Part shown: positions 60,042 through 64,000 of the stretch, one piece after another | Numbering within the stretch: position 1 is the stretch's first letter | Layout of the letters: each line of letters opens with the position of its first letter | Assembly: GCF_002218065.1 (NCBI RefSeq) | Contig: NZ_BDUB01000001.1 | Location: 2,116,711 to 2,180,710, forward strand | Direction of reading: 5' to 3' | Length of the DNA stretch: 64,000 bases | Origin: Nodularia sp. NIES-3585 | GTDB taxonomy: Bacteria; Cyanobacteriota; Cyanobacteriia; Cyanobacteriales; Nostocaceae | The notes under the pieces: generated by a model | Told to the model about the DNA's origin: nothing | The model's input: the letters and a program-made list of their open reading frames with translations, nothing else | The model's database searches: none | Position numbers and translations under genes: made by a program

Positions 60042-60305
60042 GACAGCAGGTTGGAAGTCAAAAATCTGAGACTCTATAGCCTTTTCATTGATTTCTTAGT
60101 GGTTGTCCTATTTACGCCGTGCTGTACTAAAGAAAAAATACTGCGAGGTTCCCAGATTGGGGACTATTCCAGCTATTTTAGGTGGTTCTGCCTACCAAAT
60201 AATCATGCCCTAATTACCTAACAATCCCACTAGGTGGGAATTTGTTAGGGGTTTAGTAAAACTCCAGTGGCATCACATCAAAATAATAATTTATCTTCAA
60301 TCGTC

Positions 60306-61208
60306 ATGAACTCCGAATCGAAACTTTCTCAACCTGCCAATTCGTCTTTTACGATGGACGATTTTGCCAAAGCATTAGAAGTACACGACTACCAGTTTCA
60401 AAAAGGGCAAGTTGTACGTGGGAAAGTATTTCAACTTGACCCTGATGGAGCCTATGTAGATATTGGTGGCAAGTCATCCGCTTTTCTCCCCCGTGATGAG
60501 GCTTCTTTGAGAGCAGTTACCGATTTATCGGAGGTGCTGCCATTGCAAGAGGAACTGGAGTTTTTGATTATCCGCGACCAGGATGCAGAAGGTCAAGTCA
60601 CCCTTTCGCGCAAGCAGTTGGAAATTCAGCAAGTCTGGGAACGACTGACCGAAATGAACGAAGGTGGACAGACGGTGCAAGTTAGAGTCACGGGTGTAAA
60701 TAAAGGTGGTGTTACCGTTGATTTGCTTTCCTTGAGAGGATTTATTCCGCGATCGCATTTAGCAGAGCGTGATAACTTAGAAGCACTTAAAGGTCAAAGT
60801 TTGACTGTCAGCTTTTTAGAAATTAATCGTAATACCAACAAACTGATACTTTCCCAGCGCTTGGCAACTCGTTCTAGCAGCTTCAGCCTATTAGAACTAA
60901 ATCAGCTAGTAGAAGGTAAAGTTACTGGCATTAAACCTTTTGGCATATTTGTGGATTTAGATGGTCTTAGTGCCTTGCTACATATTAAGCAAGTCAGCCA
61001 AAAATTCATTGAATCTCTGGAAAAAGTCTTTCAAATTGGTCAAACAATTAAAGCTGTAATTATTGACTTAGATGAAGGTAAAGGTCGCGTGGCTCTTTCT
61101 ACCAGAATTTTGGAAAACTTCCCTGGTGAAATGCTAGAGAATTTTGATGATGTCATGGCTTCAGCCGAGGCGCGTGCTAATCGAGCTAGTAATAAGGCTG
61201 CTGAATAA
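60306..61208 (+). CDS. S1-domain RNA-binding protein (30S ribosomal protein S1-like)
   Basis: A 300-residue protein with three S1 OB-fold domains: KGQVVRGKVFQLDPDGAYVD (about 40-105), GQTVQVRVTGVNKGGVTVDL (about 122-190) and NQLVEGKVTGIKPFGIFVDL (about 205-275). Cyanobacteria carry a three-domain S1 protein of this kind that binds mRNA. The start is set at ATG 60306 (MNSESKLSQPANSSFTMDDF); the GTG at 60267 adds 13 residues. It is monocistronic, with no signal of transfer. Confidence 0.92.
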   Translation: MNSESKLSQPANSSFTMDDFAKALEVHDYQFQKGQVVRGKVFQLDPDGAYVDIGGKSSAFLPRDEASLRAVTDLSEVLPLQEELEFLIIRDQDAEGQVTLSRKQLEIQQVWERLTEMNEGGQTVQVRVTGVNKGGVTVDLLSLRGFIPRSHLAERDNLEALKGQSLTVSFLEINRNTNKLILSQRLATRSSSFSLLELNQLVEGKVTGIKPFGIFVDLDGLSALLHIKQVSQKFIESLEKVFQIGQTIKAVIIDLDEGKGRVALSTRILENFPGEMLENFDDVMASAEARANRASNKAAE

Positions 61209-61403: not shown

Positions 61404-61859
61404 ATGTGCAGCAATAATTCAAGTCCATTGCGGTTGCAAGTTTGGCGGTCTTGTCGTTGGAAAAAAGAATTTTTGGATACAAACAAAAATGATTTAGCAG
61501 ATGTTACAGCTTTCCAGGAATGTCTTTATTCTTGGGAACCTGTTGAACATCCTTTTGGTTCGATTACCAGCGGTGAGCAAACTCAGAGGCTAACAAAAGA
61601 ATTAATTGAAAATTTTTCTTTAGGAATAAAACCTGAAGAACGTGGAATTGAACAGTTCAAGAAAGTTATCCAAGTAATAGATGATATATTGTCTCACGAA
61701 AATGAATCAGCTTGGAGTGATTTAGAAGAGTTCGGACACTTGTCTAATTATGATAGTGTCAACCTTCGTCAACATCGACTTCTGGCTTTACGCCAGCATA
61801 TTCAGTGGGTATGCGATACGTTTGCTAATGTCCCAGATATCAGTATATCCCTTCGTTAA
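61404..61859 (+). CDS. Unrecognised 151-residue protein, first gene of a PIN operon
   Basis: No family is recognised. The N-terminal 45 residues are basic and Cys/Trp-containing (CSNNSSPLRLQVWRSCRWKK). The remainder is helical and acidic, with regularly spaced hydrophobics (RGIEQFKKVIQVIDDILSHE, then RQHRLLALRQHIQWVCDTF). It ends 11 bp before the PIN gene, and all three genes read in the same direction with tight spacing, so it should be the small subunit or regulator of that system. The operon is more AT-rich than the S1 gene before it. Confidence 0.6.
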   Translation: MCSNNSSPLRLQVWRSCRWKKEFLDTNKNDLADVTAFQECLYSWEPVEHPFGSITSGEQTQRLTKELIENFSLGIKPEERGIEQFKKVIQVIDDILSHENESAWSDLEEFGHLSNYDSVNLRQHRLLALRQHIQWVCDTFANVPDISISLR

Positions 61860-61870
61860 CATACAAGTAT

Positions 61871-63910
61871 ATGGAATTAAAATTGCTAAGTAAAGAAGAC
61901 GCACTCCAATATATTTCTCAAATAGGTAAACATGGAGAGCCTTTTGACATATTTCTCGGTGAAGATATTTGTTTTGGGCTTAATAAATGGGTAAAGGTTG
62001 GGATGATTACATTACAACCAGGAGGGCAAGCTTCAGCAATGGAAACCCAATATAATGAGTTTTATGCTGCTAAATTTGGTGGTTTTGAATGGCAGCTACC
62101 ATCTTCAGAAACGCTCAATCAAAATATTGCTGATATTCTTAATAATGATCAAAGCCTAGATAGAGTTAAGAAAGCTTTCCGAGAAGGATTACAGGACGTG
62201 CTTCGGAGGACTTTATTACTTTTACCTATTTTCGATGTCGAGACTATTTCCAAAATCCCTTTACAGAAACCGATCACAATCATTGCAGATACATCAGGTA
62301 TTCACCAAGGAGGGCTTGATTTTGTAAGTCGATTTCTTACACCTTGGGCAAGAATAAAAATACCCGCGATTGTTCATATGGAAATAATTAATCAGGTAGA
62401 TAGGTACTTTAGCACTCGTAGAGAAAGTCAAAAAAGGAATAAACCTGTTTCTGCGGCACTTCGAGAACATATTCTCAGCCAGGGTGGTCAAAGAACTTTG
62501 CTTCGGCTTGAACTACATTCAGATACAGAAATAGAACGTGGTGATTTAGGTGCTGATCCATTGAGGGGTATTGTGACACCTAGTAGTGATCCTGAAGATA
62601 GTAACCTTAAACTACAAGAGATTGTTAGAAGTTTTGCTGACCGTCTAATTTTAGAAACTGCACGACGTTTTCAAACCCAAGTTCGTCCAGATCATTCGCT
62701 TGCGCTTCTGACTAGTGATCAAGGTCTAGCTAGAATGACGATGGCTGAAGGAATGGATGTATTGTTTTTTGAATCTCGTTCTGTTCCTAAGTTCGATACT
62801 AGGAAACTGACTGGCGTTCTTTTTCATCCTTTCAGTCAAGAAATATATACAGTAGCACTAACGGATGTTCTTTGGGAATTAGCTGTATCTTTTGGATGCC
62901 TTCGCTTGCACAATTCCAATACTAATGAGTCATTAGAACTATGGGGAATGCCAAGTGGGGAATATTCATGGCAACCTATTCATATTAAAGATGATCTTCT
63001 TTGGGGAAAGTTTCACACTGAACCATCCTCCGCCACAACAGAGAATACCTCTGCTTCTTTATCAACTGATAGAGAAATCCCAAAAACTGATACAGTTTCT
63101 AGCCAAAATATAGAAATAATAGCTCAAGCCTATGCATTTAGTCCAGATCAAATGTTCTTGCTAATGAACATCTTAGTAAACAAGGGAGAGTTAACTAATC
63201 AAGAAGCTCAAGAGAAATTAGGTTTAACACATCAATCTCGTTATAATTTGTATAAAAATTTTCTCCATAGTGGTAGTTTTATTGAATTTAAAAACAACAA
63301 AATTGTGTGTACAGAATTACTTAAGTCTCTATGGCAAAGTTTACTGGATGAAGAGCATCTTAAAGTTTTATATTATTTGAAGAAAATACCATCATTTGAA
63401 TCATTATATAGGTATGTAAATCAAAGTAAGACTGTTGAATATAGCACATTACCAATTTCAAAGAAAGCAAAATCAACCTATGTTAAGCTCGGTGAGGCAG
63501 CTTGTGCTTGGTTGAATATACAAAACCAAAGAATTGTTGCCACTGATAACATACCTGAGTTAGCAGATTTTGCTAATTTAGCAGTAGAGGTTTATAAATC
63601 AATTCGTTCACAGGGAGACACAGAATGGATACTTACTGGACGTTGGTTAGAAGAATTAGCTATTCAATATGCTGTTCATCCAATATTAGCCAGAAAATTG
63701 GTGAAAGAAGCCCAAGACCAAAACTTAGTTAATGTCTATGCTGAAGGATCTACTCCAGATACTCGTTTTGAACAGCACGATTTGTGGATAATTAAGACAA
63801 GTGAAGGACTTCCCCACTTGGAAAGAGTTTATCTGTATCATGGAAATTTTATTATACCTGGGACATCTGCTGTACGTATTAAGCTAGAAGGAGTTAAAAA
63901 TGCCTCTTGA
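61871..63910 (+). CDS. PIN-domain nuclease-like protein with winged-helix-type C-terminal region
   Basis: A 679-residue protein. Residues 1-130 are an N-terminal region of unknown fold. Residues 135-300 form a PIN-type core with four acidic positions in order: Asp140 (TIIADTSGIHQGG), Glu171 (IVHMEIINQVD), Asp257 (FADRLILETARRF) and Asp283 (ALLTSDQGLARMTM), the arrangement of metal-dependent PIN RNases. The middle part (300-400) is beta-rich. The C-terminal half has a winged-helix-like stretch (LTNQEAQEKLGLTHQSRYNL) and more helices. It is far larger than VapC toxins (~130 residues). Its stop overlaps the next ATG by 11 bp. Function is unknown; RNA or DNA cleavage in a conflict system is inferred. 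Confidence 0.75.
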   Translation: MELKLLSKEDALQYISQIGKHGEPFDIFLGEDICFGLNKWVKVGMITLQPGGQASAMETQYNEFYAAKFGGFEWQLPSSETLNQNIADILNNDQSLDRVKKAFREGLQDVLRRTLLLLPIFDVETISKIPLQKPITIIADTSGIHQGGLDFVSRFLTPWARIKIPAIVHMEIINQVDRYFSTRRESQKRNKPVSAALREHILSQGGQRTLLRLELHSDTEIERGDLGADPLRGIVTPSSDPEDSNLKLQEIVRSFADRLILETARRFQTQVRPDHSLALLTSDQGLARMTMAEGMDVLFFESRSVPKFDTRKLTGVLFHPFSQEIYTVALTDVLWELAVSFGCLRLHNSNTNESLELWGMPSGEYSWQPIHIKDDLLWGKFHTEPSSATTENTSASLSTDREIPKTDTVSSQNIEIIAQAYAFSPDQMFLLMNILVNKGELTNQEAQEKLGLTHQSRYNLYKNFLHSGSFIEFKNNKIVCTELLKSLWQSLLDEEHLKVLYYLKKIPSFESLYRYVNQSKTVEYSTLPISKKAKSTYVKLGEAACAWLNIQNQRIVATDNIPELADFANLAVEVYKSIRSQGDTEWILTGRWLEELAIQYAVHPILARKLVKEAQDQNLVNVYAEGSTPDTRFEQHDLWIIKTSEGLPHLERVYLYHGNFIIPGTSAVRIKLEGVKNAS

Positions 63911-64000
63911 AAATCTATTTACAGATGAGGCGACTGCTAATTCACCAGATCAGCAAACAAAGTTGCTCTATCAAAAGTTTGGTGTATTGAGTAACCCTTT
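63900..64000 (+). CDS. Third gene of the PIN operon, truncated by window end
   Basis: From ATG 63900, overlapping the PIN gene stop by 11 bp and preceded by AAGGAG within that gene, the first 33 residues read MPLENLFTDEATANSPDQQT, KLLYQKFGVLSNPF. The FGVLSNPF run resembles the short N-terminal motif before the P-loop of some AAA-type ATPases (FG...NPF), but no catalytic motif is in view, so the ATPase assignment is only a guess. The tight overlap shows translational coupling to the PIN protein. Confidence 0.5.
   Translation, partial: MPLENLFTDEATANSPDQQTKLLYQKFGVLSNP

Follow-up and report, generated by a model that had tools for sequence, protein, structure and literature searches.

What does a three-gene operon, found beside a serine tRNA gene in a small minority of the Nostocaceae, do for the cells that keep it? 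The question arises at the right edge of a 64,000-nucleotide stretch of Nodularia sp. NIES-3585 DNA (contig NZ_BDUB01000001.1:2116711-2180710, within a 5.77-Mb genome), here called the window, where coupled genes encode a small protein, a large PIN-like protein and an AAA+/P-loop ATPase. The answer we favor, and regard as rather likely, is that this trio is a chromosomal anti-invader operon of Nostocaceae, most likely directed against phages, which lies beside tRNA-Ser and is exchanged at times between genera. For an operon of a nucleoside triphosphatase (NTPase) and a nuclease in such a slot, with patchy distribution, occasional exchange and evidence of selection, defense is the simplest function; by its genomic context, the trio is probably an undescribed NTPase-plus-PIN defense operon. 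A preliminary description of the window had likewise proposed a multi-component conflict or defense system, and slot context, patchy distribution (13/217 genomes) and the integrity of the trio now support that interpretation.

The locus is laid out as follows, in window positions; beyond the window end, window-equivalent positions come from an extension (L002) in which position equals window position minus 60000.

60267-61208, plus strand: left slot anchor, an S1-domain-like gene (313 amino acids, aa), a core neighbor outside the operon
61208, 61275, 61280, 61320 or 61332, according to the relative compared: left boundary of the variable segment, where homology to empty sites stops (blastn against those of G589, G020, G003, G002 and G536)
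61404-61859, plus strand: gene 1, 151 aa, without a recognized domain
61871-63910, plus strand: gene 2, 679 aa, with an N-terminal part of unknown type, a PIN-like region at about residues 130-305 and a helix-rich C-terminal region
62222-62806, plus strand: PIN-like region of gene 2 as folded (195 aa), used for the structure model and Foldseek
63900 to window-equivalent 65048, plus strand: gene 3, an AAA+/P-loop ATPase of 382 aa resembling KAP and BrxC/D proteins (the window ends at 64000)
window-equivalent 65175-65261, strand opposite to the operon: tRNA-Ser(UGA), 126 bp past the end of gene 3

Genes 1, 2 and 3 are the sole genes between the left anchor, which we take to be S1-domain-like, and tRNA-Ser, past which lies a gene that is presumably phosphoesterase-like. 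The open reading frame (ORF) coordinates bear out the sizes of 151 and 679 aa, the 11-bp gap between genes 1 and 2 and the 11-bp overlap that places the start of gene 3 inside the end of gene 2, all as first described; with the sequence extended past 64000, the third gene, cut at the window end, completes at 65048-equivalent as a 382-aa AAA+/P-loop ATPase. The operon had also been called AT-rich: its GC content is indeed lower than that of the window (0.362 against 0.417), but the deviation is modest, 6.6% of the window's 3645-bp stretches being equally low.

Where the trio occurs, it occurs whole. All 13 carriers have the complete set, and no homologue without its partners appeared; they make up 13/217 Nostocaceae genomes and 6/56 genera, and include 0/4 other genomes of the same genus. 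A contig scan, queried with short peptides of one sequence and reaching close relatives only (remote relatives in other phyla are possible), yielded 11 relatives, 10 of them titled Nostoc, Dolichospermum or Calothrix and the eleventh from an uncultured cyanobacterium. All 11 keep gene order and strand, with a 12-bp gap between genes 1 and 2 and an 11-bp overlap between genes 2 and 3. No further carriers emerged from relatives (1/60), an order sample (1/291), a phylum sample (2/291, the own genome and one false match) or a gene 3 profile (1/148); the false match, in G521, sits in the ORF region of a copper-ATPase-like gene and was taken as a false positive. Gene 2 had no match in plasmid, phage and viral collections, gene 3 none in phages or viral contigs, and gene 1 none in plasmids.

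Over 12 aligned sequences, mean column identity is 78% for gene 1, the least conserved of the trio, 83% for gene 2 and 90% for gene 3. Ratios of nonsynonymous to synonymous divergence (dN/dS, each gene against four relatives) lie at about 0.10-0.33, marking selected coding genes rather than chance ORFs; on this measure all three are under purifying selection. Gene 2 distances track those of the S1-like protein over 13 genomes (Mantel Spearman 0.82, reached by 0/2000 permutations), with conspicuous conflicts: G597 and G638 differ by 0.01 in the S1-like protein and by 0.16 in gene 2, while G597 and G652, from different genera, differ by 0.09 in gene 2 and by 0.14 in the S1-like protein. Agreement and conflicts together suggest that the operon has long been in the family, that losses have occurred and that some copies passed from one genus to another, an exchange of which the sequences thus show signs.

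Such descent could also be expected of a host operon for RNA or DNA processing or repair that some Nostocaceae have retained and most have lost. The tracking of a core gene by gene 2, purifying selection with a very conserved gene 3, and a position by at least one of the two core anchors in 10/13 carriers all fit that explanation. We nevertheless consider it improbable, given presence in only 13 of the 217 family genomes and none of four congeners, the cross-genus exchange, and a slot that in relatives stands empty or has other occupants, many of them defense-like.

The slot itself is bounded by core genes, the S1-like gene being present in 213/217 family genomes and the phosphoesterase-like gene in 212/217. 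Either tRNA-Ser or the phosphoesterase-like gene directly follows the operon in 9/13 carriers. In G675 the S1-like gene precedes the operon with another cargo in between; in G650 and G652 the operon lies between genes that we take, from their sequence starts, to be pyruvate-kinase-like and mutS2-like; and the G647 contig is too short to place it. Among the matches listed (best 150 per anchor), 130 genomes have both anchors: 40 with the pair no more than 60 kb apart and arranged alike, 49 with the two on different contigs and 41 with some other arrangement. The gap between them in those 40 is 316-536 bp in seven, 1.7-15.3 kb in 31, among them the own genome and G004, and about 49 kb in two (G001 and G598). 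Within the genus, the slot holds the operon in the own genome, is empty in G002 and G003, and carries a NACHT protein in G004; in G001, where the gap is about 49 kb, the ordinary chromosomal-looking genes in 33 kb of listed ORFs look like a rearrangement, which is the probable explanation there.

Reading of 29 other filled slots (L062-L090) and three empty ones (L091-L093), with 20 hand-picked cargo proteins scanned against PADLOC, indicates that in relatives the slot holds members of known defense families. A PADLOC match at E<=1e-5, for a scanned protein or a member of its cluster, was found in 20/29 filled slots (19 without a weak dynamin-like match), a proportion with no measured background; on this count the trio's location is a slot rich in defense genes. 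The cargos comprise NERD-UvrD helicases (six slots), ZorA/ZorB-like pairs (seven), NACHT proteins (four), HerA (four), a PD-T4-4_A/AriA-like ATPase (two), and a C5 methyltransferase, an NsnA-like, a TPR and the weak dynamin-like protein (one each). The nine slots lacking a match or a scanned protein are L062-L065 (none scanned), L068, L069, L071, L072 and L083. Genes that are presumably VapC-like occur in 20 of the 29.

At five empty sites homology resumes at L002 5167-5174, 1-8 bp before the 3' end of the tRNA. A boundary so close to the tRNA raises the possibility that the operon is part of a mobile element and serves integration at tRNA-Ser, with gene 3 as a targeting ATPase like TnsC or the transposition ATPase TniB. 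Gene 3 does resemble a broad AAA+ group that, in the available part of one analysis, includes transposition ATPases (PMC10853773). We give this explanation very little weight: the trio accounts for every gene between the S1-like gene and the tRNA, there is no exact direct repeat of at least 9 bp between the segment ends, and unlike cargos share the same slot.

Whether gene 2 really encodes a nuclease is central to the defense interpretation. Its best Pfam match is PIN_4 (PF13638; E=0.0053, 17.5 bits against a cutoff of 21.9), and since the score falls under the curated cutoff the protein is filed as PIN-like only, not as a PF13638 member. PIN_4 matches 5/12 homologues at E<=1 (best 0.0022); an unrelated family matches another region in 8/12 (best 0.023), which puts the PIN_4 scores near noise. 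The acidic set proposed at the outset (Asp140, Glu171, Asp257 and Asp283) is identical in 12/12 aligned sequences. In PIN domains the acidic quartet is spread over a strand-helix-helix-strand order, and in a low-confidence model the four residues fit it, lying in or just after the predicted elements E135-138, H167-183, H248-271 and E278-281. On sequence evidence, then, the trio is a conserved three-gene unit in a tRNA-Ser slot, with a PIN-like arrangement of acids in gene 2.

Structural comparison used low-confidence models. Predicted local distance difference test scores (pLDDT, AlphaFold) are 33.6 for the whole protein and 45.2 for the 195-residue region, for which PIN domains fill 8/10 of the best Foldseek rows, five of these being one human protein and none significant (best E 0.026); a non-PIN fold did not win out in this low-confidence model. 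VIA-align of the region gave a mixed match list, sequence searches of the PDB no match, and PADLOC models no match. Profile-profile comparison of the shallow gene 2 alignment gave 0.9% against a set of four PIN_4-type proteins and a fifth, weaker member and 0.5% against VapC-like proteins, beside 1.7% for the gene 1 control and 0.1% for a haloarchaeal protein; as the positive control, VapC-like against PIN_4, reached only 0.4%, alignments this shallow cannot decide PIN membership. Weak but concordant signals and the acid motif lead us to judge that gene 2 is very probably a PIN domain protein. A winged-helix-like C-terminus, part of the preliminary description, is not established, the prediction there being helix-rich and of low confidence.

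Several points count against a defense role as read here. Invariance of the four acids is in itself weak evidence, as 40 of the 85 Asp and Glu residues in gene 2 are invariant. Enrichment of defense genes in the slot is not established as such by the 20/29 count, which lacks a background, and the HerA and ABC models of PADLOC are promiscuous, while some models are only candidates.

A PIN-like nuclease next to a small protein also calls to mind VapBC, and the trio could be an enlarged toxin-antitoxin module in which gene 2 is the PIN toxin, gene 1 the antitoxin and gene 3 a chaperone-like regulator, stabilizing its locus rather than acting against phages. The 11-bp spacing behind a small upstream gene, the low conservation of gene 1 relative to its partners and the frequency of VapC-like genes in the filled slots would suit such a module. 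VapC toxins are about 130 residues long, however, against the 679 of gene 2; an AAA+ ATPase gene accompanies the pair in every carrier, so that the contrast with VapBC drawn earlier is upheld; gene 1 matches nothing in Pfam or NCBIfam at E<=1, antitoxin families included; and the VapC-like genes of relatives' slots are separate genes. A validated two-gene PIN system, DS-5, is likely not a toxin-antitoxin pair either, according to the available part of its description (PMC13092281). On balance we find the toxin-antitoxin explanation unlikely. Gene 1, which also lacks PADLOC and useful structure matches, may instead be an adaptor, sensor or inhibitor.

Gene 3 is more readily classified. Its protein matches KAP_NTPase (PF07693) above the Pfam cutoff (24.5 bits against 20, E=1.9e-5), followed by AAA_16 and AAA_22, each under its own cutoff; KAP proteins typically carry a membrane-spanning insert. 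A Walker A motif (G77-x-G-K-T81) and a Walker B motif (D235-E236) have GxGKT and DE invariant in 12/12 sequences, identifying, at the level of motifs, an AAA+/P-loop ATPase with intact Walker motifs. The only relatives found outside the carriers are haloarchaeal BrxC/D-type ATPases: tblastn against plasmids returned two annotated as "BREX system ATP-binding domain-containing protein" (E=2e-6 and 2e-5), alignable over about 300 residues at 24-25% identity and matched by hhalign at 97.6% over 296 columns. The FG..NPF start noted in the preliminary description is present and common to these relatives, which match Pfam BrxC_BrxD (PF10923) above cutoff. Gene 3 itself is matched at E<=1 by neither Pfam BrxC_BrxD nor NCBIfam BREX_BrxD and is therefore called BrxC/D-like rather than BrxD.

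The haloarchaeal ATPase genes adjoin tRNA-guanine transglycosylase genes in three records, one of which also has a helicase and a phospholipase-D-like gene; we take these islands to be Dpd-like. Such a neighborhood is the pattern of Dpd islands in the accessible portion of one account, which also assigns BrxC and BrxD to the ORC/Cdc6 group of AAA+ proteins (PMC12839542), and members of that group are called a mainstay of conflict systems in the part available of another (PMC10853773). In the haloarchaeal islands (L060, L061 and L105) the gene of an unnamed protein overlaps the BrxC/D-type ATPase gene, and the pair may be an unrecognized island component.

How close, then, does the trio come to known systems? 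With BREX BrxD/BrxC and the haloarchaeal ATPases it shares the FG..NPFP start and P-loop, and in the haloarchaeal islands, as in the trio, the ATPase gene begins within or directly after its upstream neighbor. The partner proteins of the two have no similarity, however; BREX differs further in that the trio lacks PglZ, a methyltransferase and a helicase and that gene 3 fails BrxD models. Dpd differs in its tRNA-guanine transglycosylase (DpdA), for which there is no gene between the S1-like gene and tRNA-Ser, the rest of the genome not having been searched. Tests at the locus thus place the trio outside VapBC, BREX and Dpd.

HerA with DUF4297 is an ATPase-nuclease defense pair, and the likeness lies in the general plan of an ATPase coupled to a nuclease; gene 3, by contrast, matches no HerA model, and gene 2 nothing in PADLOC. 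An ATPase-nuclease dual-enzyme anti-phage defense complex has been described, as far as the accessible text goes (PMC11291478). The PIN-domain systems DS-3 and DS-5 (PMC13092281, DefensePredictor) protect against phage and need their catalytic residues, so that a PIN nuclease as effector is there shown by mutation; DS-5 has two genes, both required. The available part of that report mentions no AAA+ ATPase, and the two are set apart from the trio by description, not by sequence. Conflict systems of multicellular prokaryotes that depend on nucleoside triphosphates (PMC7159879) likewise combine an AAA+ ATPase with a probable effector and a third protein, as does the trio in a relative of Nostoc; as portrayed in the accessible part of the source, they center on MoxR-type AAA+ proteins with vWA partners or on GTPases, neither of which is matched in the trio.

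No instance of the trio's gene combination turned up in PADLOC, Pfam, NCBIfam or the literature searched, and no literature on this operon or slot was found among the matches listed. As ATPase-nuclease defense operons are a known theme, it is the combination alone that appears new within these libraries and papers. Experimentally supported PIN-based defense systems are few in the literature searched (DS-3 and DS-5); if the defense interpretation is correct, the trio adds a compact NTPase-nuclease system.

How might such a system work? Once an infection is sensed, the AAA+ protein would assemble, perhaps on invader nucleic acid, and then license the gene 2 nuclease. The C-terminal part of the gene 2 protein might bind nucleic acid or the ATPase, with the gene 1 product as adaptor, sensor or restraint. 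Cleavage would probably be of RNA, given the PIN_4/SMG6-type resemblance, and the outcome could be stalled phage growth or abortive infection. We infer this order of sensing, assembly, licensing and cleavage from relatives and from the two PIN systems. A fuller version, to which we grant slightly less than an even chance, is that of a self-contained, undescribed type of immune system: a large PIN nuclease is gated by a BrxC/D-like AAA+ ATPase of the ORC/Cdc6 group, with a dedicated small adaptor as intermediary, RNA cleavage restricts invaders or shuts down the cell, no DNA-modification arm is involved, and spread is via the tRNA-Ser slot in filamentous cyanobacteria.

Beyond the trio, the small slot at tRNA-Ser(UGA) offers a ready supply of candidate defense cassettes in Nostocaceae (NACHT, NERD-UvrD, Zorya-like, HerA and several unmatched proteins). 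A NACHT protein of 786-793 aa recurs there: at L046:1438-3798 in G004, where it has 786 aa and an NCH2 domain, and in L070, L075, L086 and L089. It matches the candidate model PDC-S60 over its NTPase part only. A cassette of ZorA-like, ZorB-like and what we take to be protein-kinase-like genes occupies seven of the 29 slots (e.g., L076:2183-5566).

A NERD-UvrD helicase was considered as a fourth component of the operon and set aside as a separate slot cargo, lying divergent to the operon in just 2/13 carriers (G552 and G675; L013:4153-6450 and L011:4765-7014); the remaining 11 carriers have nothing beyond short weak matches. Among 18 non-carriers searched, three (G006, G009 and G016) have it at 75-77% identity, adjoining the S1-like or phosphoesterase-like gene, and distant relatives at 30-34% identity occur in the non-carriers G011 and G003. 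NERD-UvrD-like helicases occupy the slot without the operon in L074, L077, L079, L080, L088 and L090.

Other cargos are less familiar. A 480-aa protein in three slots (L068:3560-5002, L071:3771-5213 and L072:1589-3031), with no PADLOC match for the one copy scanned, is possibly a further undescribed system. A protein of 682-687 aa, presumably HNH-like at its start, is paired with a 258-aa partner in L069:2141-4941 and L083:2332-5117; the large protein is without a PADLOC match. In G675 a possible restriction-modification pair lies downstream of the operon (L011:12299-13776), made up of a protein of 153 aa and one that resembles N6-methylases (E 1e-3, under the cutoff). Farther out, beyond the window, an OrfB/TnpB-type gene at L002:6496-7716 (window-equivalent 66496-67716) separates the phosphoesterase-like gene from the nadA-like gene; in 5/6 relatives with both seen these two are 86-150 bp apart, and in L013 783 bp.

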